A stretch of 64,000 nucleotides of DNA from Balneolaceae bacterium. GTDB taxonomy: Bacteria; Bacteroidota; Rhodothermia; Balneolales; Balneolaceae. The DNA is taken from assembly GCA_017643365.1 (NCBI GenBank), contig JAEPNO010000001.1:186001-250000 (forward strand). The letters are read 5' to 3'. The translations under genes and the position numbers were made by a program. Shown piece by piece: positions 24,042 to 44,756 of the stretch (position 1 is its first letter; every line of letters starts with the position of its first letter). Under the pieces are notes generated by a model. It did not search any database. It saw only the letters and a list, made by a program, of their open reading frames with translations, and was not told the DNA's origin.

Positions 24042-24065
24042 TGAATTAGTTTTGAGTGATTAAAC

Positions 24066-25586: not shown

Positions 25587-25623
25587 GCTTTAAATAATTT
25601 AAGTTTGGTTAGGTTAAATAAAG

Positions 25624-27020: not shown

Positions 27021-29933
27021 CTATTTCATCAACATCATTTTTTGTGTTTTAACCACATTACCCGATGTTAGTCGATAAATGTAGATACCACTACTTAAAC
27101 CGCTGGCATCAAAACGAACGGTGTAAGACCCTGCCGCTTTTGGCTCCTGTACCAGATTAGCAACTTTTTGCCCCAACAGGTTAAATACTTCTACACTCAC
27201 AAAACCAGCCTCAGCTACATCAAAAGTGATGTTTGTTGATGGATTGAACGGGTTCGGATAGTTTTGATATAATTTGAATGCATTGGGAGAATTGTCAACA
27301 ACTTCTTCTTCTGCACTCACCGACATGTTAAATTCTTTGGTGGTAAATAAACGATATTCGCCCGGTGCCAATGCAATTTCATGTTGATTGGTTTCGCCGT
27401 TTACATCGATGGTAGAATTGTTAAAGAAATCGTACCAAATACCACCTTGGGTAAAGTCTACTTGTTGCGTGGTTGATGTAACTCCAAAATTTCCAATTGC
27501 CACAACGTCGGAGTCGGTGTGCTCATATCTATAATATTTAACTGAACCTGAAAGTGCGTAGGTTGCATTATCAGGACGAGTGAAGGCTTCGGAACTGTTA
27601 CGAAGTTTTATCACGCTGGCCCAGGTGTTATATAGATCTTTTCGATCGGGATCCTCGTTGTAATCCCAACGAATTGGTTTGTTTGCAGTTCGTCCCGGAG
27701 CAGAAGCCGGGCAATCATCAGAATCATTTAAACACTGCTCACCGGCATCACCGTAGCCATACCCAAGTTCACCGAACTGCCAGATCATACGTGGACCCGG
27801 AATTGGGAAGAAAAATACTCCGGCAAGTTCCATTCTGTCGAGGGCTGTTCCCAGCTCACGAATGTTGTAATCGCCACTTGAATTACCAAAACTGCGATTT
27901 TTGAACATCAACCATTGCTCGTCATGGCTTTCCATGTAGCTAACTAAGTGGTTGAACTGAAAGCCTCTTGAGCTTGAACGCACTCCGTTCAAGTTAGATT
28001 TTCCACCGTCGTTGTAGCCCATGGTTGCTTCGTTATACGCGGAATTGGAATTCCCCCAAAGCAACATTCCGGCATCTGCCAATACTTTCTCTTCGTTATT
28101 GTCGGCAAAGTGTTCGAGGATTACATACGCTTCAGGATCAACACTTTTGATGTGTGCATAATATTCTAACCAGATATCAACTCTCGATTGATCGTAGTTA
28201 CCCCAAGCTCCAACATCGTTTGGATTGTTGGTTTGGGTAAATCCTTTACTCAAATCAAATCGATAGCCATCAACTTTATACTCTTCGATCCAATATTCCA
28301 TCACTCGTTTTGAGTAATATCTTGTTTTTGATGATTCGTGATTGAAATCGTAACCTACGTTAAATGGGTGTCGCGCTGCGGTGTTGAAATAAGGATTTTC
28401 AGCCGTTGGATTCCCGAAATCACCTTCGTTCCAAAGTCGCACTAATGGATTTTGACCAAATGAGTGATTGAGCACAACATCTAAAATAACAGCAATGCCT
28501 CTTTTATGAGCTTCATCCACAAAACGCTTGAACTCGTTAGGCGTGCCATAATATTTATCTAGGGCGAGATGAAAAGCCGGATTGTATCCCCAACTTTCAT
28601 TTCCATCGAATTCGTTTACCGGCAAAAACTCGATAGCATTAACACCAAGATTTGCGATGTAATCTAAGGTATCGATTAAGGTGCTGTAACTGTGATCGGC
28701 AATAAAATCACGAAGAAGCAATTTGTAGTTTACTAATTTGTCGTTGTCTGGTGCATCGAAATCAGTTACTTCCCATTCATATTCCTCTTCGCCCGGAGTA
28801 AGTACACTCACCATATGCGAAGTTTTTCCTGTTGGATAAGGCTTCAGGTTAGGGAAAACGTCGTCTGAGATAAACTGGTCGTTAAATTCGTCGAGTACTA
28901 ATTCTGAATATGGATCAGCGATGGTAATTTCGCCATCCACCAAATATTGCATGCCGTATTGCTGGCCGGCAGTTAGTCCATCAATTTCGGTCCAATACCA
29001 AACATCTCCACCTTGGATGTCTTTTTTCATGAGATACTCAGAGGATGGAGTCCAATTATTGAAATCTCCGATCACGTAAATAAAATCTTTACCCGGTGCA
29101 TACAAAGAGAGCTGAACGGAAGTATCCGAGTTGTAAGTGATTCCATCTTCCAGACCATTCGGACGAGCAACAACCGCTCCATCATTTTCACGAACGGTTA
29201 CAAAAAACGAAGCCGTATCAGCAAGATTAGCACCGTTTGAAGCCACCAAATCAAATTCGATATCCGTATCCCCTGCTTGTGGTACGTAGGTGAAGCGTAG
29301 GGTATCGTCGGTAGTTGTGGCAACTGAAACATCATTTTTGAAAAGCTCCAGATTTAAATCACCGCCTACAACGGTTCCGATTCCAACTAAATCCAGCGAA
29401 CCATCACTTTTCATAAATTCATAGTCACTGTCGGGGGTTACAAAACGAGCAGCGGCTTCTCCTGCCGTAAGCTCAATAAAAATATCAGCATTGCCTTCGT
29501 CTTTTCCTTCGGCAACAATCGCTCCATTTCTAACGCCTTTATAAACGATTGCCACTTGTTCAATCACTTCGTTAGGATCGGTAACCCCAAAAAACTCACG
29601 AATAGATGGCTTGTATGTGAATGCCCATTTATTATCACCAAGATCGGTTGCTTCTACGCTGGCATCGTTGGTTTCCCATCCAAAGGGAACGTATTTCCAG
29701 TCGCTTCCGGTGGTGCTATTACTTGTGATTAAGCCCGTATGTAAGTATACGCGACCATCGAAATTTTCGAGCCCCTGATTACCTTGCGTGGCATCCAAAA
29801 CAACGCGCAGTGAATCTTCGGAAGTAGCAAATGATGGTGAGAAAGTTACAACTTGTGCCCATACCTGAGTTTGAAGAGCAACAGTAAGTAGAAGTAGTGA
29901 ACTTAGAGTGAGTAGGTGTTTCTTAAAGTACAT
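27021..29933 (-). CDS. Secreted CBM48-GH13 alpha-amylase with T9SS sorting domain
   Basis: The 970-residue protein starts at ATG 29933, which gives a signal peptide ending TQVWAQ; the longer frame overlaps lacI without signal features. Order: N-terminal beta modules (about 25-280), a CBM48-like module with YVIGDFNNWTPSSEYL (about 305-390), and a GH13 barrel with VILDVVLNHSFG, DGYRFDLSKG (nucleophile), VILEHFADN (acid/base) and MESHDEQW. A C-terminal T9SS type A domain has LYQNYPNPFNPSTNITF, GLSSGIYIYRL and a final KMMLMK. T9SS would carry it across the outer membrane and attach it to the surface or release it, where it cuts starch-like polymer. It follows lacI by one base and is the first enzyme gene of that transcript. 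Confidence 0.93.
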   Translation of the reverse strand: MYFKKHLLTLSSLLLLTVALQTQVWAQVVTFSPSFATSEDSLRVVLDATQGNQGLENFDGRVYLHTGLITSNSTTGSDWKYVPFGWETNDASVEATDLGDNKWAFTYKPSIREFFGVTDPNEVIEQVAIVYKGVRNGAIVAEGKDEGNADIFIELTAGEAAARFVTPDSDYEFMKSDGSLDLVGIGTVVGGDLNLELFKNDVSVATTTDDTLRFTYVPQAGDTDIEFDLVASNGANLADTASFFVTVRENDGAVVARPNGLEDGITYNSDTSVQLSLYAPGKDFIYVIGDFNNWTPSSEYLMKKDIQGGDVWYWTEIDGLTAGQQYGMQYLVDGEITIADPYSELVLDEFNDQFISDDVFPNLKPYPTGKTSHMVSVLTPGEEEYEWEVTDFDAPDNDKLVNYKLLLRDFIADHSYSTLIDTLDYIANLGVNAIEFLPVNEFDGNESWGYNPAFHLALDKYYGTPNEFKRFVDEAHKRGIAVILDVVLNHSFGQNPLVRLWNEGDFGNPTAENPYFNTAARHPFNVGYDFNHESSKTRYYSKRVMEYWIEEYKVDGYRFDLSKGFTQTNNPNDVGAWGNYDQSRVDIWLEYYAHIKSVDPEAYVILEHFADNNEEKVLADAGMLLWGNSNSAYNEATMGYNDGGKSNLNGVRSSSRGFQFNHLVSYMESHDEQWLMFKNRSFGNSSGDYNIRELGTALDRMELAGVFFFPIPGPRMIWQFGELGYGYGDAGEQCLNDSDDCPASAPGRTANKPIRWDYNEDPDRKDLYNTWASVIKLRNSSEAFTRPDNATYALSGSVKYYRYEHTDSDVVAIGNFGVTSTTQQVDFTQGGIWYDFFNNSTIDVNGETNQHEIALAPGEYRLFTTKEFNMSVSAEEEVVDNSPNAFKLYQNYPNPFNPSTNITFDVAEAGFVSVEVFNLLGQKVANLVQEPKAAGSYTVRFDASGLSSGIYIYRLTSGNVVKTQKMMLMK

Positions 29934-29934
29934 G

Positions 29935-30924
29935 TTAAAATGTTGATGTTCGTTGAATGAGTTCGGGTGAATAGATTGTTTGTGAGATTGCCTTGTTGGC
30001 ATTGTTTAGTCGTTCGATAAGACTTTGTGTAGCGAAATAACCCATATCTCGCATGGGCTGACGGATGGTACTAAGCCCGATATATTCAGCAAGCTCGATG
30101 TCGTCGTAGCCAACAATAGGAATTCTTTTGCCTGAATCTTTCATGGCTTTAAGTGCGCCAACGGCTTGAATATCGGATGCACAGAAGCAAGCTTCGGGAG
30201 GATTATCCATAGCTAAAATGTGTTTCATTGCCTCGAAGCCCCCTTTTTCGGTAAATCCATCTCGATAAAAAGAAGTACCGGATATCACGTAGTTAGGATC
30301 AAACTCGATACCACTTTCGTCGAGTGCTTTTCGATACCCAACCAAACGATCTCTGATAGGTTTTGATGAACTAAGTGCCGACAACATGGCAACTTTTTTG
30401 TAACCGCTGTCAATCAGGCTTTTTGTAGCACGATATGCCCCCTGAATATTATCTACCGAAACCGAATCGAAGCCTTCGTAATGTTCGTCGATTAGGGTGA
30501 TGGGCAGATTAAAGCGTTTGAGCTTTAGAAACTGATCATCGTTTAAATGGATGGATATAAACAGGTAGCCTTCGGCCCATCGGCGTTTTAGAACGTGTTC
30601 AACTTCTTTAAAGAGGTTTTCGCCGGCGGTTACATTAAAGATGGTGAGTTCATAGCCTTGTTCACTCAGTTTGTCCTGAATACCGCCCAATACTTCCATA
30701 AAAAAGTAATTCGAAATTACCGGTACAACAGCCATTATGGTATTACTCTTAGATCGGGCTAGTCCTTGAGCATAAGCCTGCGGGTGATAACCTACAGCGT
30801 CTGCTACGCGCAGTACTTTCCTGCGTGTTGCTTCAGAAACACTACTGCTTTGGTTAAATACACGCGAAACGGTTGCGATACTTACCCCTGCTTTTTCAGC
30901 TATATCATAAATGGTAGATGCCAT
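29935..30924 (-). CDS. LacI-family transcriptional regulator of the glucan locus
   Basis: The 329-residue protein has the LacI helix-turn-helix at residues 4-23 (TIYDIAEKAGVSIATVSRVF), the hinge region (QAYAQGLARSKSNT) and a periplasmic-binding-protein-like effector domain with ending GLSTIRQPMRDMG. It should be a repressor or activator that senses a maltose-like sugar. It lies between the large surface-protein genes and the amylase genes and ends one base before the amylase start, so it is co-transcribed with the enzymes it probably controls. Two LacI/cre-type operators are 14 kb away at 44800 and 44998, upstream of the first gene of the locus. I found no matching site directly in front of lacI itself. 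Confidence 0.92.
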   Translation of the reverse strand: MASTIYDIAEKAGVSIATVSRVFNQSSSVSEATRRKVLRVADAVGYHPQAYAQGLARSKSNTIMAVVPVISNYFFMEVLGGIQDKLSEQGYELTIFNVTAGENLFKEVEHVLKRRWAEGYLFISIHLNDDQFLKLKRFNLPITLIDEHYEGFDSVSVDNIQGAYRATKSLIDSGYKKVAMLSALSSSKPIRDRLVGYRKALDESGIEFDPNYVISGTSFYRDGFTEKGGFEAMKHILAMDNPPEACFCASDIQAVGALKAMKDSGKRIPIVGYDDIELAEYIGLSTIRQPMRDMGYFATQSLIERLNNANKAISQTIYSPELIQRTSTF

Positions 30925-30994: not shown

Positions 30995-33900
30995 TTACTT
31001 AATAAGCATCATTCTCTTTGTGCTTGTAAAGTTGCCTGCTTCAATACGGTAGATATACATACCTGAAGACAGAGCGCTGGCATCGAAAGCAACAGTGTGT
31101 ACACCGCTGTTCAGTGTTTTGCCATTAATTAGAGTAGCTACTTCCTGACCTAACAAGTTGTAAACCGACAATCTTACGTCAGATGCAGTTGGTAGTGCAA
31201 AGCTGATGTTAGTTGAAGGGTTGAACGGGTTAGGATAGTTTTGAAGTAGTTCGAAACTGTCAACGAGTTCGGTTTCTTCTTCGTTAGAGTTGCTCACTTT
31301 CGTGTAATCCGGTGGAGTTTCCCACTCAAGATCAGTAGCAGCCCAAGTTAGAGTTTCGAACTGGAAAGTTGCCGGCCACATTACATCAGGTTGATCATCC
31401 GGATCGTCTCCATCTGGAGTAACGATAGGTTGGATGTACTGGTAGTGACGACGACCAGCATCGAAACCACCACCGTTAGCAATAAGCTCGCCGGTTTCGC
31501 TTGTAGGCTCACCGTAAGCAATACGGAAACCAATGTGGTTTAACGTAAGTGGCGCTAGGGTAAGGTCTAGAGTGTAAACCATATCTGCGTTGTCATCAGT
31601 GAAACGTAGACGATTTCTTTCTTCCGCTGATAGTGCAATGAAGTTTTGCCCATTATCACCAGGAACAGTGATGTCGTTGGTTAATGCGAAGAAAGGAGTA
31701 TCAACAAATAAGAATACTGAATCTGTTGCCGGATTGAATGGAGGTGTTCCATCATCTCGGGTTACAGCAGCACTCATATCAACACTAAAGGTCACAGTAA
31801 CTTGTCCGCCACCGGTTACGTTATTCGGAGTGATTAACGCCTGTGGAGATACACCGTTATAGTTTTCTGATTGCACAGCTTGTGAAACATCATTTGTGAT
31901 GCTGAATCTACGATCGGCACCACCAGTTACGCCTGGTTCTTCCCAACCTGAGCCATCATGAGTAATACCACCTAAGAAAAACTCACTGCCTTCCTCATCG
32001 CGACGTTGATCCCACTTAATGTAGTATTTGTAGGTAACATCAGATTCTACAGCTGCAGTAAATGGTATTGCTAGTGCATCGTAGTTACCTGAGATATCAT
32101 TAAAGGTCATACGGTTTTCGCCCCAACCATTGAAAGATCCACGAACGGATACCGTATCAATTGCTGAGTTGAAGAAACCAATACCTTCTAGAATACCAAC
32201 ATTAACTTCGAAGTTAAGTGCAGTACTTACAATAACGGCATCGGTAGGAGGCACGTTATCGAAATATCTCCAGTAAAGAGTAGTATCGTCATCTGAGATG
32301 TTGAAGGTGTAGTTATCACCATTTTCCCAAGAGATGGTACCATCAAGATCTTCAATTACAAATTTGTAGTTGATTGGATCTACGAAGTTAGCAAGGCTGT
32401 CGTTGTCTACATAAACAACACCGGCAAAGAAGATATCATCGCCTGTTGCTGAAATCTGCTCCATTGGAGTTGCAGAATCCCATCCACCGGCAAAGAAACC
32501 ACCTGTACCACGGATACCAACTATTCCTGAAGTCAGGTCTAGATCAGCATTTTGAACTTGTGCACCTACGTTTACACGGAATACAAAAGCTGTACTGTCT
32601 TCTTTTTGCTCGAATGGAGCTTCGCGAGTTTCGTACCATTGTAGTTCGGTAGTTACATCAGCGCTGGCATCAGCAGCAAGTTTAAATTGGTTGTTTCCAC
32701 CGCTTTCCCAGCCGGTTTCGCCACCATTTCTAAGACCTGTGTTGGCATCAACACCAGCCCACCACTTGTAATTGATTTCATCACCTGCAGCCATATCGAA
32801 AGATACACTCCAGTAATCGCCACCCATATTTTCAGCCACTAAATCGGTGCTGTTATTCCAGTCGATAGTTTGACCTAAATATGGAGCATTGTAACCGGTA
32901 GAACTGTTAACGCCACCAAATACTGCTAAATAATGGTGTTCCATTAAAGTATCAGGATGAGTAGCTGTGTTAACCATAAAGGTTACGTTTACGATGTTCG
33001 CAATCTCGGTAGAATCGAAAGGCATGATTTGAACTTCGCTGTTATTGCGAGCCATAACACCAATCAAGTTGAATCTTTCGGTTGGAGCCGGAGCACCATC
33101 GAAGAAAGACTGACCTCTATCGATACGTAGCGTAAACGCGCTGTCGCCAGCCACTACATCAACATTCACACCAGAGCTTACTTGAGCATCTGCTGGCCAT
33201 GTTTCGCCTTCAGCAAGACTTACGTCTTCAATTTTTACGATTGTACCCTGAAGATCAGACTCTGCCATTAAATCAGCAGCTGTAATTACTTTCGGAGAAG
33301 GACGAGTGTTACCTGCGCCTTTTACGATTACAGTATCAGGATTAATCTGAATTTGATTGCTAAATGAACCTAAGGTTCCAGTAATTTCAAGCGTGTCACC
33401 AACGCTCCATCCGGTGAAAGAAGGATCGTCCATGTTTTGCTCGCCACCTACACCGGCATAAAATACGTTAATACCACCGGTAGCATCTTGCACAAAGAAT
33501 TGACCATGGTTGAAACCATAATCAGGAGTGTTCATCACACCTTCGATTGTAACTGTTCCTTTTGCTGCCGCTCTAGCATCAGCAATGGTTGACATTACTG
33601 CAGTACCGTCGTTGTAGAAATACAAGTTGTCGATAAAAGCAGTTACACCAGCCGTAGGAAGACCACTAAAGATGATTTGAGAAATGTTTGAACGAGCAGT
33701 TAAGCCGGTAAATGAATCAAGTGCTACATCATAGCTGATCCATTCGCCTTGCGCTGGGTTTTCCCAAGCCATTTCGTGCTCAACATCGTCGCCACCGCCA
33801 AATGCGCCATCAGCACCAAAATCAACAAGTTTGATTCTGAATGTAGTTGCATCCGGAGTCCAAAGATCGAAACGAATGTTTGTCATAGTGGACGCGTTAA

Positions 33901-35191
33901 TTTGACTTGACACTGTTTCAATACCAACAAAATCAAGGCTGCTGTACATCTTTACAGCATTATCGGCGATGGTAGTGTCTTTGAAAGTAGCGTTAGACCA
34001 ATCGGTTCTCCATGTATCTACGGTTACATCAGCGTAAGCATCACTGAAAAGTGAAATTACTAAGTCTGAATCTTGAGAAGGTTCAGCCGGAGCATCGATA
34101 GGAGCAGTTAGATCAGCAGCATTTGTAAATGAAGCAAATCCGTTTACACCGTCCATCGCATACACGTTTACAGAACCATCAGTATTAACTTTTGGATGTG
34201 CTTCACCATGGATTGAGCTGAAAGTATCAGCATCATCGCCCATTAGAGGAGAAACGGCAACAGTTACAGGTACTGTAGCATCTGCAACATTATAAACAAT
34301 GGCTTGACCGGTTTTGTTACCGCTGTTGGTGCCATCTAGTCTATACGTATACACTGATAAATGATCTTCACCATTTAATTGGAATGTGTTGATACCGTTT
34401 CTAGAGCTAGTAAAGTCGGTAGATGAGAATATGCTGTTTTCAACATACGCACCGGCAGAAGTAAATCTTTTTGGAGCAGCTCCATTACCGGCAATGTAGA
34501 AATCGCTAGATCCACCAACTGCCAATGGTTCTGCATCAGAATTAGCAGGAATTGCAGTGTTAGATCCAGAAAGAGTAATTGTATTAATACTCCAAGTTGC
34601 GCCATTATCAGCAGTAGTAGCAACGTAAACAACTCCCGGATCAGAACCTGCTACCGGCATCCAGATTTCGATAGAATTATCAGAAACAGATCCCTTTACA
34701 GAAAATTTGTCTCCAAGTCGCTGAGCAGTTGCAGTAGTTAGTGTTAAAGAATCAGCATAAGCGCCGCCTTCTGAGGTCCACCAGTACAATCTGAATGGAG
34801 AAGTACTGGCATCTGTAGCTAAATTTCCTAAGAAGATTACACCGTCATCCGAAACTTCCACATCATTCATAGCGAAAGTTCCGCCACTTACGCCTGAAAG
34901 ATCAAAAGCGGTTGCAGGTGTTACATCTGCTCCTGTTTCGGCATCCATTACTTGAATAGTATTGTTTGCTCTGTCTGCAGCATAAATCCTTGCGTTACCG
35001 TCAACGGTACCATAGGCCATACCCCGAACCGATCCAACAGTAAACCATGATGGCTTACCCTCAGCTCCGGTACGATCAGTACGTTCCCACAAGGTATTCA
35101 TTACCTGTGCCTGAATATCATTCGTAAAAACCATCGCTACGATGGCAAATACAAAGACACTCAGAAAGTGTTTATGAATTAATCGTATCAT
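30995..35191 (-). CDS. Large multi-module secreted protein with T9SS sorting domain (SusE/F-like role proposed)
   Basis: The 1398-residue protein has a signal peptide ending IQAQ and then, by eye: a propeller-like region resembling DUF4623 (about 30-370); a beta-sandwich resembling a carbohydrate-binding module (about 375-525); an OB-fold-like segment (about 530-730, with GQFFVQDATGGINVFYAG); four tandem beta modules of about 100-130 residues, one with VSVRGSFNGWGENRMTF, the CBM20/CBM48-like surface turn; and a T9SS type A tail with LLQNYPNPFNPSTNISF and a terminal KRMMLIK. I see no GH catalytic motif. It probably binds glucan on the cell surface, as SusE/SusF do. It follows the PorV/PorQ-like gene by 40 bp. 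Module borders are approximate. Confidence 0.8.
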   Translation of the reverse strand: MIRLIHKHFLSVFVFAIVAMVFTNDIQAQVMNTLWERTDRTGAEGKPSWFTVGSVRGMAYGTVDGNARIYAADRANNTIQVMDAETGADVTPATAFDLSGVSGGTFAMNDVEVSDDGVIFLGNLATDASTSPFRLYWWTSEGGAYADSLTLTTATAQRLGDKFSVKGSVSDNSIEIWMPVAGSDPGVVYVATTADNGATWSINTITLSGSNTAIPANSDAEPLAVGGSSDFYIAGNGAAPKRFTSAGAYVENSIFSSTDFTSSRNGINTFQLNGEDHLSVYTYRLDGTNSGNKTGQAIVYNVADATVPVTVAVSPLMGDDADTFSSIHGEAHPKVNTDGSVNVYAMDGVNGFASFTNAADLTAPIDAPAEPSQDSDLVISLFSDAYADVTVDTWRTDWSNATFKDTTIADNAVKMYSSLDFVGIETVSSQINASTMTNIRFDLWTPDATTFRIKLVDFGADGAFGGGDDVEHEMAWENPAQGEWISYDVALDSFTGLTARSNISQIIFSGLPTAGVTAFIDNLYFYNDGTAVMSTIADARAAAKGTVTIEGVMNTPDYGFNHGQFFVQDATGGINVFYAGVGGEQNMDDPSFTGWSVGDTLEITGTLGSFSNQIQINPDTVIVKGAGNTRPSPKVITAADLMAESDLQGTIVKIEDVSLAEGETWPADAQVSSGVNVDVVAGDSAFTLRIDRGQSFFDGAPAPTERFNLIGVMARNNSEVQIMPFDSTEIANIVNVTFMVNTATHPDTLMEHHYLAVFGGVNSSTGYNAPYLGQTIDWNNSTDLVAENMGGDYWSVSFDMAAGDEINYKWWAGVDANTGLRNGGETGWESGGNNQFKLAADASADVTTELQWYETREAPFEQKEDSTAFVFRVNVGAQVQNADLDLTSGIVGIRGTGGFFAGGWDSATPMEQISATGDDIFFAGVVYVDNDSLANFVDPINYKFVIEDLDGTISWENGDNYTFNISDDDTTLYWRYFDNVPPTDAVIVSTALNFEVNVGILEGIGFFNSAIDTVSVRGSFNGWGENRMTFNDISGNYDALAIPFTAAVESDVTYKYYIKWDQRRDEEGSEFFLGGITHDGSGWEEPGVTGGADRRFSITNDVSQAVQSENYNGVSPQALITPNNVTGGGQVTVTFSVDMSAAVTRDDGTPPFNPATDSVFLFVDTPFFALTNDITVPGDNGQNFIALSAEERNRLRFTDDNADMVYTLDLTLAPLTLNHIGFRIAYGEPTSETGELIANGGGFDAGRRHYQYIQPIVTPDGDDPDDQPDVMWPATFQFETLTWAATDLEWETPPDYTKVSNSNEEETELVDSFELLQNYPNPFNPSTNISFALPTASDVRLSVYNLLGQEVATLINGKTLNSGVHTVAFDASALSSGMYIYRIEAGNFTSTKRMMLIK

Positions 35192-35231: not shown

Positions 35232-36257
35232 TCAGAAATAAACCTGAATGCTTAGTTTATTTACATCACCTAGGTAGGTATAACCGTGGTAGGTGTAATT
35301 AAAGGCGACTCCAAGGTTATTTGGTAAGGTGTATTTAACACCAATTCCGCCATTAAATTTTTCGATTGCATCGTCCTGCCCTATGTATGGCACTCCACCT
35401 CGAATAAACACTTTTTCGTTTAGTAATGAAAGTTCTCCCCCCACACTAAAGCTCTGTGTATTATTAGATGGATTGTTTCCATCGATGGCAATGGTAGCTC
35501 GTGTACCGTCTCGATCGAAGGCATCCCACGCCAGGCCAACTTTCAACATCAGCGGTAAATCAAAACCATCAGTGTATAATCGGGCATCCGGCTGATAATT
35601 TCCTTCTCTCGCTTCGTCAGGATCGGAAGAAATAATCAGATCATTACCGGTCATTTGCATTTTCGAGCCAATATTTGTCACACTTACGCCAAAACGAATG
35701 CCATAAAATGGTGTATCGTAGATGGTGCCTACATCAAATGCCAGAGTTGATGCCGATGAGTTAGCAATTTGTTCGTACACGATTTTAGCCGTTCCACCAA
35801 TGGTAAACTGTGGAATCAAATATTGAGCATAACTTGCACCAAAGGTGACCGAGTAAGCATTAAAAGTACGCCCTGTTTTTCCCTGAGCTTCAGCAGTGGT
35901 TTCGTCAAACTCGCCATAGTTCATCGCAAGTACATGCACCCCTACTGCTCCCTTCCCGGTTGGAATGGCAGCACCTAAATAGGAATGGTTGAAATCTAAA
36001 AACCAATCAGTGATTTCTACCTGGAGCTGCCCGGTTGTGATATCAGACAGGCCTGCAGGATTTAAAACCATCGCTGAGGCATCATTCACTGTTGCTGTAT
36101 AAGCACTCATTGCTGATGATCGGGCGCCAACAGGAACCCGCAGAAAATCTGCAGCTGTTGTTCCGGCTTTCGAAAGCTGAGCTTGTACTGCCGTTGCAGG
36201 AAGAAATACGGCAATAAGAATAAATAGGGATAGTATTTTTTTCATGTTCTTGATCAT
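35232..36257 (-). CDS. PorV/PorQ-family outer membrane beta-barrel
   Basis: The 341-residue protein has a signal peptide (MKKILSLFILIAVF, cleavage near VQAQ) and the PorV/PorQ (UPF0164-like) opening GTTAADFLRVPVGARSSAMS, with the ALNP-like AMVLNPAGLSDI motif. The rest alternates beta strands and ends with an aromatic residue (SIQVYF), as outer membrane barrels do. PorV is the T9SS component that shuttles cargo to the attachment complex; family members embedded in operons with T9SS cargo may be dedicated versions. Two start codons are possible: 36257, which overlaps the upstream stop as ATGA, or 36245 (MKKIL). It sits between two large surface proteins, so a role in exporting or holding them is inferred. 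Confidence 0.85.
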   Translation of the reverse strand: MIKNMKKILSLFILIAVFLPATAVQAQLSKAGTTAADFLRVPVGARSSAMSAYTATVNDASAMVLNPAGLSDITTGQLQVEITDWFLDFNHSYLGAAIPTGKGAVGVHVLAMNYGEFDETTAEAQGKTGRTFNAYSVTFGASYAQYLIPQFTIGGTAKIVYEQIANSSASTLAFDVGTIYDTPFYGIRFGVSVTNIGSKMQMTGNDLIISSDPDEAREGNYQPDARLYTDGFDLPLMLKVGLAWDAFDRDGTRATIAIDGNNPSNNTQSFSVGGELSLLNEKVFIRGGVPYIGQDDAIEKFNGGIGVKYTLPNNLGVAFNYTYHGYTYLGDVNKLSIQVYF

Positions 36258-39200
36258 TTTATCACCGCAAATTTTCCAACTTTTTCGCCAACACCCGGTG
36301 CCTCGATGTGATATAAATATATACCATAGGATATTTCGAGATTATCTTTAGTTAGCATGTTCCAGGCATAAGTTCCGCCGTAACCATTCAGTAAATCAGA
36401 TTCCTCAATCTCGATTTCTCTGATCATAACACCTGAGGAAGTAAATATCCTTAGCGTAGCAGGAGCAGGAATTCCGGTAAAATGCAGTTCTCTTCGGTGC
36501 TGCCGGTTGGTTGTAGTTGCTTCCGGTTCGAAAATATTAGCCACTTTATATGGATTCGGAATAACCAGAATGTCATCCATTTCACTTTTGGCAGTATCTG
36601 CATCTACGCGTGGAAGATTATCGGTATCGAAAGTAAACTGGAATTTATCGCGACGAATAAATGGCTTGTTGGTGAAGATTTTCAGCGTATCGCCCGGTTC
36701 AGGATTACGAGTTAACATAGTTCCTTCTGATAAAAATGCTGACATTGTAATTCGATACGTAACAGTGTCTTCCACTTCTCTGAAGTCTTCAACCAGATAA
36801 ATCAAATCAGAACAGCGCCCACTTAAACTTGATACGGCTGATAATTGTCCGGCCTCCGGTGGGGTGTAATTATCGGGTGGGAAAAAGGTTGGATTACAAC
36901 GCTGTTGAAAGGATGACCCATTTTGCAGATCCAGGAATGCATAATCAACATCTTCCTCTAAATAACTATTATAAACTCGGAAATTGGTAGCTACAGAAGC
37001 TAAGTTCGTAAAAGTTCCTGGGGAGGTTTCTACCCTCTTTTCAACCGATTGACCGAATCCAACTGCATCACCAATAATTATTTCGTAATCGGAGATTTTA
37101 GGTGGTCCTAGTGTAAAAATTTCGTGATTGTGAGGAGCAACTTCGGTATCGAATGCCCAACCGGTTCTATCGGCATCAATTCCGGTTTCGGTTACATTAT
37201 TTACCCGAATAGTAAAGCCTTCTGCTACCGGGTTGTTGCCTCCACTTAAATTGGTAGACCTTGCGATTAAGGTGTCAGGTGTTCCACCTGTAACATTCCG
37301 TAATGTGAAATTCTTGGTTTTTAAGGTATCGGGTGCGCCGTTTGCAACTACGAGCGTATCTTCAAAAACTACATCGTAAACGTTGTTTTCTTTTAGTACT
37401 CGAGGGTCGATAATCTCAACATTTACGGTACCGCCCGGTGAACCTGAAATTATAGCCGCATTTGGCGATTCAGGTGAAATGTAGCCTGCTTGCTGGCGTG
37501 ATGGGCGAACTTCAACCACATTTTGGCCAAGATTTACACTTCCATCAGGATTTAACGAAATCTGAACCGGCGATTCCGACGGCCCAATAGAGTTAGGCTC
37601 GTATCCAAAATCGTAAGAGGTTACAGCATAATAGTACTTCCGGCCGTTTACAACCTCTGTATCTTCAAAAACATGTCTTAGACCGGTATCATTACCAAGG
37701 TTAAATTGAACTCCTTCGTCCGACACCGGGTGAAAACCTCTAATTCCATTTCTATTATCGTAAATAGCAATTGGTCGTAAATAAGTCCCGGAACCTAATC
37801 CATTAGTAATAGTCCTTATTTCTTCGAATGTAACATCCGTAGTTCGGTAAATTTTATACCCTTCGAAATCTTTTCCATCGCCACCTGATTGTTCTTTTAT
37901 ATATCTATCGATTGACTCCTCAGCGCTGGTATCCCAATATAAGGTAACTTTTCCATCGCCAGCTACCGCAGTAACGATAGGTGGATCGGGAGCAACAGCA
38001 AACTGATAATCTTCGCTGTAGGCACTTGTTGCGTTGTCTAGATTGGTTTCAACTTTTGCACGATCATCAGCCGAGGTTGCGTTTTCTTGTGCTGCGGTTA
38101 CAGCTACCGCAAATCGCTCGGAAGAACCTTTTGCTAACGGAAATAAACTCGAAGATACAAAAATATCGGAGTCTGTACCTGGATCTACCTCGAAGTCACC
38201 GGGTATTAAATAATTGAACCATATACTGGCATCTTGATCTACTTGAAGTGCACCTGCATCAAAAATACTTACTCGAGAAACTCCAATAAGGTCGGTTTCA
38301 CTTACATCCGTTTTATCGATGTTTGGCTCACCCGGGAAGGTGGTTCCTGCTCCAGAAGTTGGCAATCCGTCTCCTTGTCCCTCACTCATCGTTTGATCGT
38401 TACCTTGAATACCTACATCGTCGGATTGTGCAATCCAATCATTGTCGTTATCAAAGCGATCTTCTCTTCCTTCGTCCATCATTGGGGCGCTGGTGTGATA
38501 ATTCTGAAAACGCCCTTGATAGTCGTTATTCACTAAATCGGCAAAATTAGCATCGTTTTGTATTCTTGCACGGATATCTTGATTGGATACGATTAGTCCA
38601 CGACCGAGTGTATCCCCGACCTCAAATTCAAGGTAATTGATAAAGCGAACCGCACGTGGAGTAAATTGCCCAGTGGTTGGGTTTAAGGTTGTTTTTATAA
38701 GATGGTTTGGTCGGTTTTCATCAATTAAACCGTCAAAGTCACTATCAAAACCATCAATGTGAATTCCAAAATTAGGATCAGATTGCGGAAGGTTATCTTC
38801 GGTTACCGCAATGGTACCGCCACCGAAATCCCAGGTCACCCCTTGCGACTCAAACGGTGCTCCCGTGTAGGTATCAATTACCCGCGAATTGTCTTCTAAG
38901 ATTCGAACAATTTTATCGCCAACATTAATAACTCTTTCGTCAAAATCTTCGGGAGTAAATTCCCTGATTAACGTATCTACGAGAAACGATTCGGTATAAA
39001 ATCCTCCACCTTGGTTAGTTAATTGATTATATAGATTAAAATTACTTGGGTCGAAATATTCGCTTACAGGATAATATGAATCTGAATCGCCATCGTTATC
39101 AATACCGTCAATGGCATTTCCCGGAGTTTCGATGAACTTTAGTCCAAGTTGACCGATTAGCCCACCATCAAAAACCTCACCCCCATTTTCACGTTCTGTA

Positions 39201-40066
39201 TCAGTTAGGAAAGCAATACCTCGTATTTCATCAAACTCAGGCTCATCACCATTCGTATTTCCACCCACGAAATCCGCAATCCAAAGGCCAAACGACATCC
39301 GTGGATAATCATAGCTGGCATCGTTTCTTATTTCAAAGATATTGAAGTGAGTTGCGCTAACCAGCGTTTGAGACCACGCCATGATTCGAGTATCCAAAAT
39401 GATACCTAAACCACCACGACTTGGGTCGGTTAGATCCGGTTGATATCTGGAGCCATTGTAACGGGTGTAGCGATCATCACCGGCTTTGTAATAAAACTCA
39501 ACATCGGCGTTAAATTGATCGCGACCAAAATAACCGTTCCAGGAACCGCACCAGCCATCACCACCATCTTCGAATTTATCGGGCCAGCAATTTGGCCAGG
39601 TATTTTCAATGGGTGATTTCGGACCACGATCACTACGTGCCAATTCATCAGAATCATCTCTGGAATAACCTTCAATTGGGTTCAACGACCAGTTAGTTCG
39701 CCCGTCCCGACTTGTTTTATAGGAAGCTACACTCACCATCGGGAAAACATCGTCTTCAGGAGTACTTTGATCCGGAACTTCGGTACCAAACATCACACTC
39801 ATAAAGTACATGTATTCACGGTTAGTATTTCGCGGAAACTCAAATAACAACTCATTAATTGCACTACTGTTACGCCGACCTGCATGCCCAGTATTATGAT
39901 AGGTTGCCCGAAGCTGATTTCCATCCATAATTGAAATCTTGCGTTGGTCGAAATCTGATCGTTCTTCACTTGGCTCGTAGTCTTGATCCTGAGCTGAGAC
40001 AGAACCTGCAAGCAACAACGAACAAGCGAATAAGGATAGTAAATAGGATTTGGGTGAATTAGTCAT
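36254..40066 (-). CDS. Giant surface protein of unknown function with calcium-type repeats, Fn3-like domain and T9SS-like C-terminus
   Basis: I do not recognise this 1270-residue protein as a named family. It has a signal peptide ending SVSAQ. The N-terminal 300 residues are rich in aromatic and Asp residues. Thrombospondin-3-like DxDxDG stretches (GIDNDGDSDS at 321-330, and a second at about 450-465 with DSDFDGLIDEN) suggest Ca2+ binding. A fibronectin-III-like domain follows at about 700-850 with KVTLYWD and KYYYAVTSYDFGYE. The C-terminus has the PNPY motif (VIPNPYKV) and a FlgD/T9SS-like beta domain ending GKFAVIK. It directly follows the TonB receptor by four bases and is coupled to the PorV/PorQ-like gene by ATGA. 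This is the position a SusD would occupy, hence the proposal that it is a surface glucan receptor or scaffold. Confidence 0.8.
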   Translation of the reverse strand: MTNSPKSYLLSLFACSLLLAGSVSAQDQDYEPSEERSDFDQRKISIMDGNQLRATYHNTGHAGRRNSSAINELLFEFPRNTNREYMYFMSVMFGTEVPDQSTPEDDVFPMVSVASYKTSRDGRTNWSLNPIEGYSRDDSDELARSDRGPKSPIENTWPNCWPDKFEDGGDGWCGSWNGYFGRDQFNADVEFYYKAGDDRYTRYNGSRYQPDLTDPSRGGLGIILDTRIMAWSQTLVSATHFNIFEIRNDASYDYPRMSFGLWIADFVGGNTNGDEPEFDEIRGIAFLTDTERENGGEVFDGGLIGQLGLKFIETPGNAIDGIDNDGDSDSYYPVSEYFDPSNFNLYNQLTNQGGGFYTESFLVDTLIREFTPEDFDERVINVGDKIVRILEDNSRVIDTYTGAPFESQGVTWDFGGGTIAVTEDNLPQSDPNFGIHIDGFDSDFDGLIDENRPNHLIKTTLNPTTGQFTPRAVRFINYLEFEVGDTLGRGLIVSNQDIRARIQNDANFADLVNNDYQGRFQNYHTSAPMMDEGREDRFDNDNDWIAQSDDVGIQGNDQTMSEGQGDGLPTSGAGTTFPGEPNIDKTDVSETDLIGVSRVSIFDAGALQVDQDASIWFNYLIPGDFEVDPGTDSDIFVSSSLFPLAKGSSERFAVAVTAAQENATSADDRAKVETNLDNATSAYSEDYQFAVAPDPPIVTAVAGDGKVTLYWDTSAEESIDRYIKEQSGGDGKDFEGYKIYRTTDVTFEEIRTITNGLGSGTYLRPIAIYDNRNGIRGFHPVSDEGVQFNLGNDTGLRHVFEDTEVVNGRKYYYAVTSYDFGYEPNSIGPSESPVQISLNPDGSVNLGQNVVEVRPSRQQAGYISPESPNAAIISGSPGGTVNVEIIDPRVLKENNVYDVVFEDTLVVANGAPDTLKTKNFTLRNVTGGTPDTLIARSTNLSGGNNPVAEGFTIRVNNVTETGIDADRTGWAFDTEVAPHNHEIFTLGPPKISDYEIIIGDAVGFGQSVEKRVETSPGTFTNLASVATNFRVYNSYLEEDVDYAFLDLQNGSSFQQRCNPTFFPPDNYTPPEAGQLSAVSSLSGRCSDLIYLVEDFREVEDTVTYRITMSAFLSEGTMLTRNPEPGDTLKIFTNKPFIRRDKFQFTFDTDNLPRVDADTAKSEMDDILVIPNPYKVANIFEPEATTTNRQHRRELHFTGIPAPATLRIFTSSGVMIREIEIEESDLLNGYGGTYAWNMLTKDNLEISYGIYLYHIEAPGVGEKVGKFAVIK

Positions 40067-40070
40067 AATG

Positions 40071-43070
40071 TTAGAAAGACAGTTGAACTCCTAGTTGAAT
40101 GCGACGAGGTTCGGCATATCTACCAGGGTTATTATAAAAATCGGGATGTGCGTTTTGCTGAATATTAACAGGTAGAGGGCGATCCGGTTCGCCGGAATCG
40201 TTAAATACACTGTTTACTAATTTGGTATCAAAGAGATTATAAACGTTTAGAAAAACCTGAAGACTGTTTTCTCCTAATTCGAAATTCTTGTAGGTATTAA
40301 TATCTATCGTAAATCTATTCGGTAAGCGCGATGTATTTCGTAAATCTCTAGTACTGGCAACTTCACCAACCAATACTCCGGGAACGTTTCTTGAAGGTGT
40401 ATAAGGCGAACCTGAGCTAAATTTTGCTAGTAAGTTTGCTCCCCATGTTTTACCAGAATAGAACATAGAACCATTTAGAATATGAGTTCTATCCCAATCT
40501 AGAGGCTGAACCAGTTTAGTAAGAGCCTGAGTTTGATTTGTCGAATCAATTGCACCGCCTTGAGCAATAATGTTAAAGAACTCTGAAGCAGGATCAGAGT
40601 TACTACCCTCAACAATTCCGAAGGTGTAGTCTAAACCAAAATTGAATTGCTGACTTACATATTGATTAAAGGCGAAAGTAGTTCCAATAGATCTGGAGAA
40701 ATCACGGTTAAAGTAAATACCATAGTTAATCGAAGAACTGGCTGTTACTTGCGGACGGCTGGAAACATAGTCGCGTGTGTCTTTATAATAAGCGGCTAAT
40801 TCGATGGCTGTGCCTTCCAATATTTCTTGCTTCAAACCCAGCTCGTACTGAATGGAGCGCTCCGGCTTCAAGTTCGGATTTCCGAATAAACTCTGATTGC
40901 CTCCACCTTGTGTAAGCAAAATGCGTGAGTTTGTGTATAAACGATCGTAGGATGGCATTTGGAAGAAGTAGCCGTACGAGAAATAAATTACTCCGGCATC
41001 GTTGATTGGATAAGCAACCCCAATTCGTGGCGAAAGTTGATATTTAACGTCCGCATCTTTCCACCAATAAGCCTCACGATCGGCTACGGTTAAAAGCGGC
41101 TCATTTTCATCGCGTTGACCATTATCATTCAAGTCGGTGTATTGATTTTCCGGCTTTAACGGTAACTCAATATCGGGATCTTCAGGATCGGCTGGGATTA
41201 ACGCATTAGGATCGAAATAATCGAATCTAAGTCCAACATTAATAATCAGGTTTTCATATTCGATTTTATCCTGAATGTAGCCACTGAATGTAATTGGGTT
41301 TTCCGTATAGCGCTGATTTCCCGGTGTGTTAACCCCAGGGTATCCAAGTTCAAGACATGGATAATCGTTAAACACTCTTGCACAAATTACTTGTAATTCT
41401 TCAGGTGTTCCGTCCGGGAATGTGATACCATCTTGAGTAAGCGGTACTAAGCTTACGCTGCTAAATTTAATCTCATCAAATTGACCGGATACACCCGCTT
41501 TTATAAAGTGAAATTCATTAATCTGACTGGAAACTTCCACTTTAGCTATATACGTATTGGTTGATCTGCTGAAACGACTGTTGTTTGTATTATAGGTATT
41601 AAACTGACCGGCATTTGGAATTTGATTGCCGTACTCAAGATTGGTAGTCCCGAAAAGTGGATCAGATAAATTATCATAATTGAAATAGCGAGGATCCCAT
41701 GGATCTTCGTATAAATAACTTTCGTAGCCATTAAAACGGTTTGCCACATTAACGGTCAAATAAGTAGTATTTGAAGGAGTAATGGTAGTCTTCAAATTCA
41801 AAGTGTAGTTATCACGATAGTTTGTGTTTTCGCCAAGTGGCACAAACTTGTTACTAAAGCTGTAACCCTGACCTTCTTCGGTGGCATAAGAACCAATAAG
41901 ATTGAATTTTAAGGCACTTGAAAGGCGATATTCAAGATTCCCTTGAAATGAACGTGAGGTAAAGTTGTTCATATTTACCAACGAGCTGTCTCGTGTTCCA
42001 TCATCCCTTATTTCAAGTAGCTGCTGCCCTTCAATCAGAACGGTATCCGCCGAATACCAAGGCAGATCAAAGTCAACGCGCTCGTTGTAAAGCGTTCTGT
42101 ACTCATCTAAATCGGTTCCCAGAGGTACACGATCAACATATTTACCATGTGGCGAATATGCATTTCGACCAGTGAGGTATCCTTTGTTCTCGAACTGACG
42201 AGCGGTTACAAAAAAGGTGACTTTATCTTTGATAATCGGTCCTGAAACAGAAGCATTGAAGTTGCTCATTCGCAGAGGATTGAAGCTCCCCAGATCGGTT
42301 CCAATTCCATCATATAAATGACTTTTATTGGTTGCCATGTAGCCACCACTCCAAGCACGAACCGAAGCATCGTAATCGTTGCCACCGGATTTGGTAACAA
42401 CATTTACAACCCCCGAAAGCGCTTGACCGTGTTCGGCATTAAACGAACCTGAAATTACTTGAAGTTCCTGGATCGACTCATTTTCTAACCTAACGCCTGA
42501 CGAACCATCGTAATCATCGGTTACGCGAATACCATCCACAACGTAAGATACTTCCGAAGCGCGACCACCACGAATGTGAATGGCACCACTGTTACTCACA
42601 TTCACACCTGCTTGAAGCTGAATTACATCCGAAACTTCCTGCACCGGCAGCTTCTCGATTTCTGCACTGCTCACACGAGCCTCAGAACTAGTAATATCCT
42701 TAATTACGGCCTGACGTTGCGCAACCACCACTACTTCTTCTCCCTCAAAAGATTCGGGTTGAAGCACAAAATCTTGTTCAGTAGTTAAATCTGTTCGCAC
42801 AATCACTTCTTGAACAACTGCGGTGGCGTATCCAATATAGCGGGCCTCAAGAATGTAAACTCCGGGAGCTACGTTCAACATCAGGTACTTTCCATCAATA
42901 TCGGTAATGGCCCCTTTTGTGGTTCCCTTAATTCCTACAGTTGCACCAATTAAGGGTTCGCCGCTGTCAGCATCGGTAAGTGTTCCTGTAATTTTCCCCG
43001 ATTGTGCCCAAGCCAGAGCAGGTAAACTCAGAAACAGTATGGTTAGGAGTATTTTTTTAAGCGTATTCAT
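40071..43070 (-). CDS. TonB-dependent receptor of the glucan locus
   Basis: The 999-residue protein has a signal peptide ending AWAQ, a carboxypeptidase-like regulatory domain (about 25-110, GEPLIGATVGIKGTTKGAIT), a TonB plug (about 120-240, IHIRGGRASEVSYVVDGIRV and SGVVNVVTKSGG) and a large barrel ending RIQLGVQLSF. The size and the N-terminal domain match SusC-like receptors, but the SusC signature motifs and a SusD partner are absent; receptors of this non-SusC kind are common in Balneolota. Neighbours point to uptake of alpha-glucan oligosaccharides across the outer membrane. It starts nine bases after the parvulin gene and ends four bases before the giant surface-protein gene, so all are one transcript. 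Ligand is inferred from context only. Confidence 0.9.
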   Translation of the reverse strand: MNTLKKILLTILFLSLPALAWAQSGKITGTLTDADSGEPLIGATVGIKGTTKGAITDIDGKYLMLNVAPGVYILEARYIGYATAVVQEVIVRTDLTTEQDFVLQPESFEGEEVVVVAQRQAVIKDITSSEARVSSAEIEKLPVQEVSDVIQLQAGVNVSNSGAIHIRGGRASEVSYVVDGIRVTDDYDGSSGVRLENESIQELQVISGSFNAEHGQALSGVVNVVTKSGGNDYDASVRAWSGGYMATNKSHLYDGIGTDLGSFNPLRMSNFNASVSGPIIKDKVTFFVTARQFENKGYLTGRNAYSPHGKYVDRVPLGTDLDEYRTLYNERVDFDLPWYSADTVLIEGQQLLEIRDDGTRDSSLVNMNNFTSRSFQGNLEYRLSSALKFNLIGSYATEEGQGYSFSNKFVPLGENTNYRDNYTLNLKTTITPSNTTYLTVNVANRFNGYESYLYEDPWDPRYFNYDNLSDPLFGTTNLEYGNQIPNAGQFNTYNTNNSRFSRSTNTYIAKVEVSSQINEFHFIKAGVSGQFDEIKFSSVSLVPLTQDGITFPDGTPEELQVICARVFNDYPCLELGYPGVNTPGNQRYTENPITFSGYIQDKIEYENLIINVGLRFDYFDPNALIPADPEDPDIELPLKPENQYTDLNDNGQRDENEPLLTVADREAYWWKDADVKYQLSPRIGVAYPINDAGVIYFSYGYFFQMPSYDRLYTNSRILLTQGGGNQSLFGNPNLKPERSIQYELGLKQEILEGTAIELAAYYKDTRDYVSSRPQVTASSSINYGIYFNRDFSRSIGTTFAFNQYVSQQFNFGLDYTFGIVEGSNSDPASEFFNIIAQGGAIDSTNQTQALTKLVQPLDWDRTHILNGSMFYSGKTWGANLLAKFSSGSPYTPSRNVPGVLVGEVASTRDLRNTSRLPNRFTIDINTYKNFELGENSLQVFLNVYNLFDTKLVNSVFNDSGEPDRPLPVNIQQNAHPDFYNNPGRYAEPRRIQLGVQLSF

Positions 43071-43079
43071 TAATCATTT

Positions 43080-44756
43080 TCAGATTTTTATAGTAAGTGC
43101 GTTTAATCGCTCGGTATTTATTTCAGCATCGTGCTTTTCCTTAACGCGAGCTATGGTAGAATTTCTAAGTTCGGCGAGCTTCTTTTGGGTTAAAAAAGCA
43201 TCTACTTGATTTTTGGCTTCGTCGAAAGTGAGCGGACGAGCTTCAATTTTATCTAAGATTTTGTATACGTGGATTTCACCATCGGCGTAGGTGATTGGAG
43301 TAGAAACTTCCCCATTTTGTAAATTGGCCAATTTGGTGGAATTAAAGCCAAACTCATCAATATTTATGTACCCAAGTTCGCCATTTATCAATCGGTCTTC
43401 GTTATTGATGGAATGTCGGCTGATTAATTCATCAAACGGAGTGCCCGAATTGTAAGCGGTGATCATCGCCTGAGCTTTTGCTTCGCCTTCCACCACTAAT
43501 CGCTGAACATTAACCACCATTGGCTGATTGAAACGATCCTGATTTTCCTGAAAGGTTGTGTATAACTCGGCGGGTGAATTTTCGATAGATTGTTTCAGAT
43601 TATCCATCACTAATCGTTCGAGATAATGCAGGTAGGTTTCCTGAATGGAATTCTGAACTTCTTTTTGTTGATCAATCCCGGCTTTCGTGGCTTCATCAAC
43701 CATAAATGCACGATAAGTGACCCCTTTAATATAATTTTCTAAGGATGATTGATCTCGTACAGAATTCAACATTGCTGATGAACTCGCATAATATTCTTCG
43801 ATAAATCGGTCTACATCGAATTCATAATTACCATTGGTGGCCAGTTCACCTTTTAATTGAGAAAGATTTGAAACGAACTCGGGATCTTTATTCTCCCACT
43901 GCCCCGCCGAAGTTGAAATGATCTGATACAAATCAGACACTGATTCAGTATTGAGATTTATTCCATCAACAAACGTTGCTAAATGCTCACGTTGAGCCAG
44001 TTCCTCTTTCTTCTTTCGAACATAAGATTCCAGCTTCCCTTTGTTTTGAGCAAACTCATCTTCTGTTATCAATGGATTTACTGTACTTTCGGTAACTTTA
44101 ATAATGCTGTAACCTTGAGCGGTTTTAACCGGCCTCGAATATTCGCCCTGTTTCAAATTGAAGGCCGTTTCTTCAAAAGACACATCCAACTCATCCGTGG
44201 TAAACCAGCCAATATCGCCCCCATTTTCACTGAGGTAAGGATTTGAAAATGCTTCTTTTGCTAAGTCGGAAAATTGCTCTCCCGCTTCCAATCGCTGATA
44301 ATATGCTTCGGCTTGCTTAAAGGTAGGCGCGTATAAATGCGAGGCACGCAATCGAGCATTAAATCGTAAGAAATACTCGCGTAAATCTTGGTCGGTTACA
44401 TCAATATTGCTAAAAAGTAGCTGTTCTAAGAACTCTTCGGTAAGTACTCTTTTCTCGATCGTCAGCTTCTGATATTTCGCTTCTGCCGTTTCATCTAACC
44501 CAAGATCCATGGCATGAACCGCCATTACATAGGTGTTAAATTCGGAATCGAGAATGGCTTTTTTAGTGGACTCGGTTGGAGTTAACACTTGTCCCGTTCG
44601 ATAGAAGTATTCTTTAAAAGCGTTTTCGAAGTGCGGAACTGAAACCGTTAGGTTATCAATACGGGCAAGGACTTGCTCATCATCAGTTTTAGAATCTGAA
44701 AATGAACAACCCAAAAAAAGGATCGAGAAAAAAACTATGCGTCCATAGTATGGCAA
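43080..44756 (-). CDS. Parvulin-type peptidyl-prolyl isomerase lipoprotein (SurA/PrsA-like)
   Basis: The 558-residue protein has a lipoprotein signal (FSILFLGC, Cys at 17) and the SurA/PrsA plan: an N-terminal helical chaperone part, a rotamase domain at about 130-225 (ASHLYAPTFKQAEAYYQ, FSNPYLSENGGDIGWFT, EYSRPVKTAQGYSIIKV) and a second, weaker parvulin-like domain at about 390-500. It would assist folding of outer membrane barrels or exported proteins in the periplasm. The start is a TTG at 44756, supported by a GGAG box eight bases upstream. It is the first gene of the glucan locus and lies next to the operators. A folding helper built into a sugar operon is unusual and may serve the neighbouring barrel and giant proteins. 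Confidence 0.85.
   Translation of the reverse strand: MPYYGRIVFFSILFLGCSFSDSKTDDEQVLARIDNLTVSVPHFENAFKEYFYRTGQVLTPTESTKKAILDSEFNTYVMAVHAMDLGLDETAEAKYQKLTIEKRVLTEEFLEQLLFSNIDVTDQDLREYFLRFNARLRASHLYAPTFKQAEAYYQRLEAGEQFSDLAKEAFSNPYLSENGGDIGWFTTDELDVSFEETAFNLKQGEYSRPVKTAQGYSIIKVTESTVNPLITEDEFAQNKGKLESYVRKKKEELAQREHLATFVDGINLNTESVSDLYQIISTSAGQWENKDPEFVSNLSQLKGELATNGNYEFDVDRFIEEYYASSSAMLNSVRDQSSLENYIKGVTYRAFMVDEATKAGIDQQKEVQNSIQETYLHYLERLVMDNLKQSIENSPAELYTTFQENQDRFNQPMVVNVQRLVVEGEAKAQAMITAYNSGTPFDELISRHSINNEDRLINGELGYINIDEFGFNSTKLANLQNGEVSTPITYADGEIHVYKILDKIEARPLTFDEAKNQVDAFLTQKKLAELRNSTIARVKEKHDAEINTERLNALTIKI

Follow-up and report, generated by a model that had tools for sequence, protein, structure and literature searches.

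A giant protein in the SusD position: proposed type IX-exported lid of a TonB-coupled starch importer in Balneolaceae

We describe an unnamed family of giant proteins that takes the place of SusD beside a TonB-dependent receptor. The member studied here, 1270 amino acids (aa) long, is encoded in a starch/maltodextrin operon of a marine Balneolaceae bacterium, within a stretch of 64,000 nucleotides (contig JAEPNO010000001.1, positions 186,001 to 250,000; hereafter the window). The giant probably is exported by the type IX secretion system (T9SS), anchored on an outer-membrane barrel and used in place of SusD as a lid or receptor on the cell surface, for the TonB-coupled import of starch oligosaccharides.

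The giant gene occupies 36254..40066 on the minus strand; the plus strand across the same interval is crowded with stop codons. A sequence-only reading of the window had put a 1270-aa protein in the SusD slot without stating its strand, and comparison of orthologous loci, given below, supports that placement. The gene layout it described was likewise confirmed: the TonB receptor gene ends four bases upstream (gap 40067-40070), and the stop codon of the giant gene overlaps, in an ATGA, the start of a PorV/PorQ-family gene at 35232..36257. Residues 1-25 (39992..40066, minus strand) are predicted from sequence to be a Sec signal peptide of the SPI type, with Gln26 as the mature start. A lipoprotein signal peptide was not found in the giant, which has an SPI-type signal with an Ala-Gln start, and a lipobox-like string occurs in only 3 of 112 homologues, in every one within the hydrophobic stretch, as expected by chance.

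The operon, all on the minus strand, is a starch/maltodextrin locus. It begins with a PpiC-type peptidyl-prolyl isomerase (43080..44756), probably a lipoprotein (FLGC), and continues with a TonB-dependent receptor carrying a CarboxypepD_reg-like N-terminal extension and belonging to a clade apart from SusC (40071..43070). The giant and its PorV/PorQ-family barrel follow, and after them come a secreted protein of 1398 aa, our proposed SusE/SusF counterpart, which carries CBM20 and a T9SS type A C-terminal domain (30995..35191), a LacI-family regulator (29935..30924) and a member of the alpha-amylase family in which CBM48 is combined with a C-terminal domain that is likewise of T9SS type A (27021..30002). 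A block of downstream starch genes (21735..26982) comprises a maltogenic-amylase-like enzyme (25624-26982), an MFS transporter (24066-25586) and a pullulanase-like SpuA_C/CBM48 enzyme (21735-24041). The isomerase is a recurrent member of the cassette, present in 31 of 45 testable distant loci and missing from the divergent starch loci L059-L061. It lies 5' of the receptor in the operon of the giant; in C5-type paralogous loci it lies 3' of the PorV gene and not 5' of the receptor.

The giant matched no Pfam family (up to E 1) and no NCBIfam model, and a single-sequence PDB search with it returned only noise (E 0.27 or worse); it is a member of an unnamed protein family. Relatives were found in 43 of 58 close genomes and, at E < 1e-20, in 121 of 296 complete genomes of the phylum. 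The closest named loci belong to Balneolaceae metagenome-assembled genomes (MAGs) and Balneola sp., with further relatives in Ignavibacteria and Rhodothermales. The triad of receptor, giant and PorV-family barrel was found in genomes of Balneolota, Rhodothermota, Ignavibacteriota, Calditrichota, Marinimicrobia, KSB1 and WOR-3/Stahlbacteria, some MAG labels being possibly wrong (e.g. one 'Spirochaetes' and one 'Chlorobiaceae'). A single in-frame TAA was seen in each of the homologues G214:C4, G132:C176 and G090:C19, a sign either of gene disruption or of a matching artefact.

The triad is fixed across these lineages. In the Balneolales regions examined, its three genes adjoin, separated by a few bases, both in orthologues and in paralogues at loci for other sugars. 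A TonB receptor lies directly upstream of the giant in 61 of 61 named loci with enough upstream sequence, the opposite of what was named beforehand as a refutation of the lid idea, namely orthologues mostly away from TonB receptors. By ORF calling, a PorV-family barrel adjoins the giant in 57 of 62 named loci; the misses are due to long antisense ORFs in GC-rich contigs or to multi-copy clusters, and tblastn recovers PorV in the missed loci, plus the receptor where there is room for it. In L123, L127, L134, L135 and L137 the order is receptor-PorV-giant, so that it is the set itself, beyond its order, that is kept. No full-length giant without a receptor was present among the testable named loci. 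Extra copies lacking the head (profile positions 1-622) occur in two genomes (G043 and G017), where they adjoin PorV and lack a receptor of their own; the head thus goes with the receptor and the tail with PorV. In G043 one such copy lies between two PorV genes (L054:2702-7717), and since both PorV copies encode identical proteins the arrangement is a recent tandem duplication. Giant paralogues at L064, L067 and L068 stand beside genes that, judged by their first residues, appear to encode a GH38 alpha-mannosidase and a sodium:solute symporter, and these loci look like a use of the giant beyond starch.

Relatives without the giant carry a SusCDE system at the same chromosomal locus. In G005, G032 and G036 the orthologous locus reads ispG-SusC-SusD-SusE-LacI-amylase, with SusD matching PF07980 at 1.1e-37, 5.5e-33 and 2.5e-39, respectively, and SusE matches at 3e-21 and 6.6e-23. 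The giant version of this locus reads ispG-PpiC-receptor-giant-PorV-CBM20-LacI-amylase. G005 and G032 belong to one genus with the giant-bearing G023 (giant locus L060). The starch-binding partner is swapped along with the rest, SusE lipoproteins on one side standing against T9SS-tailed CBM20/X25 proteins on the other. The giant triad has therefore replaced SusCDE at the level of the locus. Within the family, SusD genes are fewer where the giant is present (median 2 vs 9.5 per genome; Mann-Whitney p 3e-4, phylogeny ignored). The giant-bearing genome studied here still retains one SusD gene, so the replacement is per locus and not global. An orphan SusF/SusE-type protein was also noted in G029, between ispG and LacI (L163:4478-5632), at a place from which SusC and SusD are absent.

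The giant shares the genomic context of SusD: its gene comes directly after that of a TonB receptor within a glycan locus. Membership of the SusD family itself is ruled out by sequence, lipidation and fold: the SusD models PF07980 and PF14322 do not match the giant, and its models are mostly beta and lack the alpha-helical TPR fold of SusD. The partner receptor scores 96 bits against the SusC/RagA model TIGR04056, below the cut-off of 368.

The structure of the giant was predicted as two overlapping parts, residues 27-850 and 680-1270, using 89 and 95 homologues (pLDDT 92.6 and pTM 0.92 for the first, pLDDT 89.8 and pTM 0.83 for the second). Roughly residues 27-690 (37997..39988, minus strand) form a head, defined by the model, structure matches and conservation as a super-beta-sandwich with large insertions and calcium-type Asp loops. 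This sandwich is a non-catalytic accessory part of GH15, GH94, GH65 and GH116 enzymes. Foldseek alone gave no head match below 0.001, and the strong Z values come from a second aligner run over the Foldseek list. The head then matched strongly only the accessory N-terminal super-beta-sandwich of GH15/GH94/GH65/GH116 (Z 15-19), reaching Z 19.4 with an rmsd of 3.1 over 261 residues among glucoamylase, dextran dextrinase and GH94/GH116. Helices in the head model are few and short, and the (alpha/alpha)6 catalytic barrel is absent from it. The earlier remark that no catalytic motif is visible agrees with sequence searches of Pfam, NCBIfam and the PDB, which gave no match to a catalytic family; the lid idea was to fall if an unrelated enzyme family gave a confident match, and only the accessory sandwich was matched.

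Four tryptophans of the head (W157, W161, W176 and W231) are invariant or nearly so among homologues. The sequence-only reading had also described thrombospondin-3 (TSP3)-like Asp-rich repeats. Asp-rich loops are indeed present, but tandem TSP3 repeats are rejected: no TSP3 Pfam model matched, and there are instead three scattered, conserved loops of the DxDxD type at residues 323-329, 441-446 and 539-543. Such motifs are not in excess (4 seen vs 2.95 expected from the shuffled sequence). D323 and D325 are conserved in 108 of 108 homologues, and D327 and D539 have one exception each, which argues that the loops matter; they probably bind Ca2+. Because the tryptophans and Asp loops are common to loci for different sugars, they are not by themselves proof of starch binding. 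A PHROGs tail-spike match at residues 599-755 (3.5e-4) was single and weak, had no phage context and was discarded. The second half of the giant contains the Fn3-like domain (about residues 690-857; 37496..37999, minus strand), noted earlier and matched by many Fn3 structures at Z 8-9, followed by more beta domains and the C-terminal domain.

The C-terminal domain (residues 1157-1270; 36257..36598, minus strand) is of the PorZ/PorU class by sequence and structure. Its description as a PNPY motif plus a beta domain was accurate: PNPY lies at residues 1170-1173, the predicted structure is a beta domain, and P1170, P1172 and Y1173 are invariant in 112 of 112 homologues. Across the family, 45 of 45 C-terminal domains match PorZ (best 9e-9) and 40 of 45 match PorU; the domain of the giant itself matches weakly (PorZ 0.0014, PorU 0.08). 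Among the top three structure matches were PorZ (5m11, Z 10.4 overall) and PorU (6za2, Z 9.0, aligned on residues 1157-1270). The giant thus combines an SPI signal peptide with an Ig-like C-terminal domain that ends in a conserved hydrophobic-Ile-Lys motif. The T9SS type A cargo models TIGR04183 and PF18962 gave no match in the giant and weak matches in 32 of 45 family members (best 1.3e-5); the amylase and CBM20 proteins of the operon have a clear TIGR04183 domain. The genome encodes a T9SS, with SprA (1460 bits), PorZ (461 bits), PorU, PorV and PorQ.

The barrel encoded at 35232..36257 (minus strand), earlier called PorV/PorQ-like, does belong to that family, scoring 153 bits against NF033709 (PorV_fam; cut-off 90). 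It is neither PorV nor PorQ proper (40.6 vs 250 bits for NF033710 and 89.9 vs 220 bits for NF033711); the true PorV and PorQ are encoded elsewhere in the genome and are distinct from it. We propose it as the dedicated anchor of the giant. The genome has ten PorV-family genes, most of them beside or clustered with one that encodes a C-terminal-domain protein. In the PorV tree most giant-linked barrels group together, the deep branches being long and poorly supported. About 20 TonB receptors are encoded in this genome, and only four are full-length relatives of the receptor of the giant (1362, 1127, 399 and ~400 bits, the last in two pieces). All four of these loci carry a PorV-family barrel and a C-terminal-domain protein, which is shorter on contigs C33 and C44 (715 or 707 aa).

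On C44 (L058:4126-19671) a TonB receptor, a 707-aa protein of the same C-terminal domain class and a PorV-family barrel make up a triad of a second kind, with neighbors whose first residues resemble an N-acetylglucosamine-type kinase and a GH3 enzyme, perhaps the same design applied to amino sugars. On C33 (L057:427-11302) the 715-aa C-terminal-domain protein, a T9SS protein, a lipoprotein, a TonB receptor and a PorV-family barrel stand in one run, which is a rearranged relative of the triad. Elsewhere in the genome, a 554-aa Ycf48/BNR-like protein with a PorZ-type C-terminal domain accompanies two PorV-family barrels and no TonB receptor (C47, L168:8947-12577), and a 2401-aa protein with repeats like those of an S-layer glycoprotein is followed directly by a PorV-family barrel (C4, L169:2171-10362).

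PorQ holds PorZ and PorV holds PorU at the cell surface (PMC5562754), PorU, PorZ and PorA retain their C-terminal domains (PMC11285876), and exported proteins with type B domains are anchored by cognate PorP/SprF barrels (PMC12618676, PMC9143113). Based on these precedents, the T9SS of the genome and its PorV pairs, we hypothesize that the giant is exported by the T9SS, docked on its own barrel and placed over the receptor. The Sec signal peptide would deliver it to the periplasm, where the type IX translocon (SprA) would recognize its C-terminal domain. Once outside, this domain would remain uncleaved and dock on the PorV/PorQ-like barrel encoded directly downstream, like PorZ on PorQ or PorU on PorV. 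The docked giant would be held in the outer membrane beside the receptor, in contact with it, with the super-beta-sandwich head over the barrel mouth. There it may move as a lid, binding oligosaccharides freed by the T9SS-secreted amylase and the CBM20 protein and passing them to the TonB receptor.

As the foremost alternative, the giant could instead be a T9SS-exported, PorV-anchored glycan-binding scaffold near the receptor, a counterpart of SusE, SusF or SGBP and not a lid. Its modular beta build, Fn3-like spacer and sandwich of a carbohydrate-enzyme type would suit this role, and because the PorV pairs at L168 and L169 have no TonB receptor, barrel anchoring alone implies no lid. We nevertheless find this reading doubtful: the SusE-like place is already filled by the separate secreted CBM20 protein, locus comparison places the giant gene exactly where SusD lies, and the full-length giant came with a receptor in every testable named locus, whereas SusE-type proteins vary by locus (SusE in L155 and L161, the orphan SusF_SusE in L163). 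It is also unlikely that the barrel is a mere shuttle, with PorU cleaving the C-terminal domain and the giant becoming fixed to lipopolysaccharide (LPS) or released. PorV serves ordinary type A cargo as a recycled shuttle (PMC5562754, PMC12618676) and PorU is present in the genome, but the ordinary cargo of this operon has the clear TIGR04183 domain where the giant has a PorZ/PorU-type one, and the barrel gene adjacent to the giant is distinct from the housekeeping PorV and PorQ.

A role in receptor assembly or quality control, together with the PpiC lipoprotein, would draw on the frequency of PpiC in the cassette and on the extracellular PPIs that occur in Bacteroidota BAM (PMC12611786, PMC12578637). 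Each receptor, however, has a giant of its own and each giant its own sugar locus, whereas a chaperone would more likely be shared, and PpiC is dispensable, as its absence from L059-L061 indicates; we regard this role as very unlikely. Most improbable of all is an unrecognized glycoside-active enzyme. The head does resemble the super-beta-sandwich of glycoside-active enzymes, but the part matched is non-catalytic, no catalytic family was matched, and the lack of the catalytic barrel leads us to reject the enzyme reading.

SusCD is the textbook route of glycan uptake in Bacteroidota, and surveys of glycan use count SusD genes. We lean slightly towards the broader view that the proposed triad, with its T9SS-delivered lid and dedicated PorV/PorQ-like barrel, is a widespread second TonB importer architecture parallel to SusCD, serving several glycans in seven lineages from Balneolota to WOR-3/Stahlbacteria. 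If so, many Bacteroidota-related lineages would import glycans through an unnamed machine missed by SusD-counting surveys, the extra 'PorV' paralogues of these genomes would be dedicated surface anchors, and surface lipoproteins and T9SS proteins would be exchangeable solutions to one task. As a three-protein complex, the triad would join two separately studied systems, TonB uptake and type IX secretion. No account of it was found in the PMC open-access literature, a scope that leaves aside subscription journals and preprints. We rate as new the protein family, which has no name, and the way in which two known principles are combined.

The SusD lid is well known from gut bacteria. The giant resembles SusD/RagB in having its gene directly after that of a TonB receptor with a CarboxypepD-like extension, in serving loci for starch and other glycans and in holding the same chromosomal slot in relatives. 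It differs in having no sequence match to SusD/RagB, in not being a lipoprotein, in a beta build in place of TPR helices, in about twice the size, and in its T9SS-type C-terminal domain and accompanying PorV/Q-like barrel. BtuG, the lid of BtuB, is a precedent for a surface partner of a TonB receptor other than SusD (PMC10404256), although it is a surface lipoprotein for vitamin B12 with no T9SS or barrel partner. With PorZ-PorQ and PorU-PorV the giant shares the C-terminal domain class and the pairing of a surface protein with a barrel of the PorV/PorQ family (PMC5562754, PMC11285876); PorZ and PorU serve the attachment of proteins to A-LPS, whereas the giant goes with a TonB receptor and has none of their N-terminal parts. 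Type B proteins with PorP/SprF offer the likeness of an adjacent cognate barrel that keeps an exported protein at the surface (PMC12618676, PMC9143113), while in the giant system the domain is type-A-like and the barrel belongs to the PorV/PorQ family.
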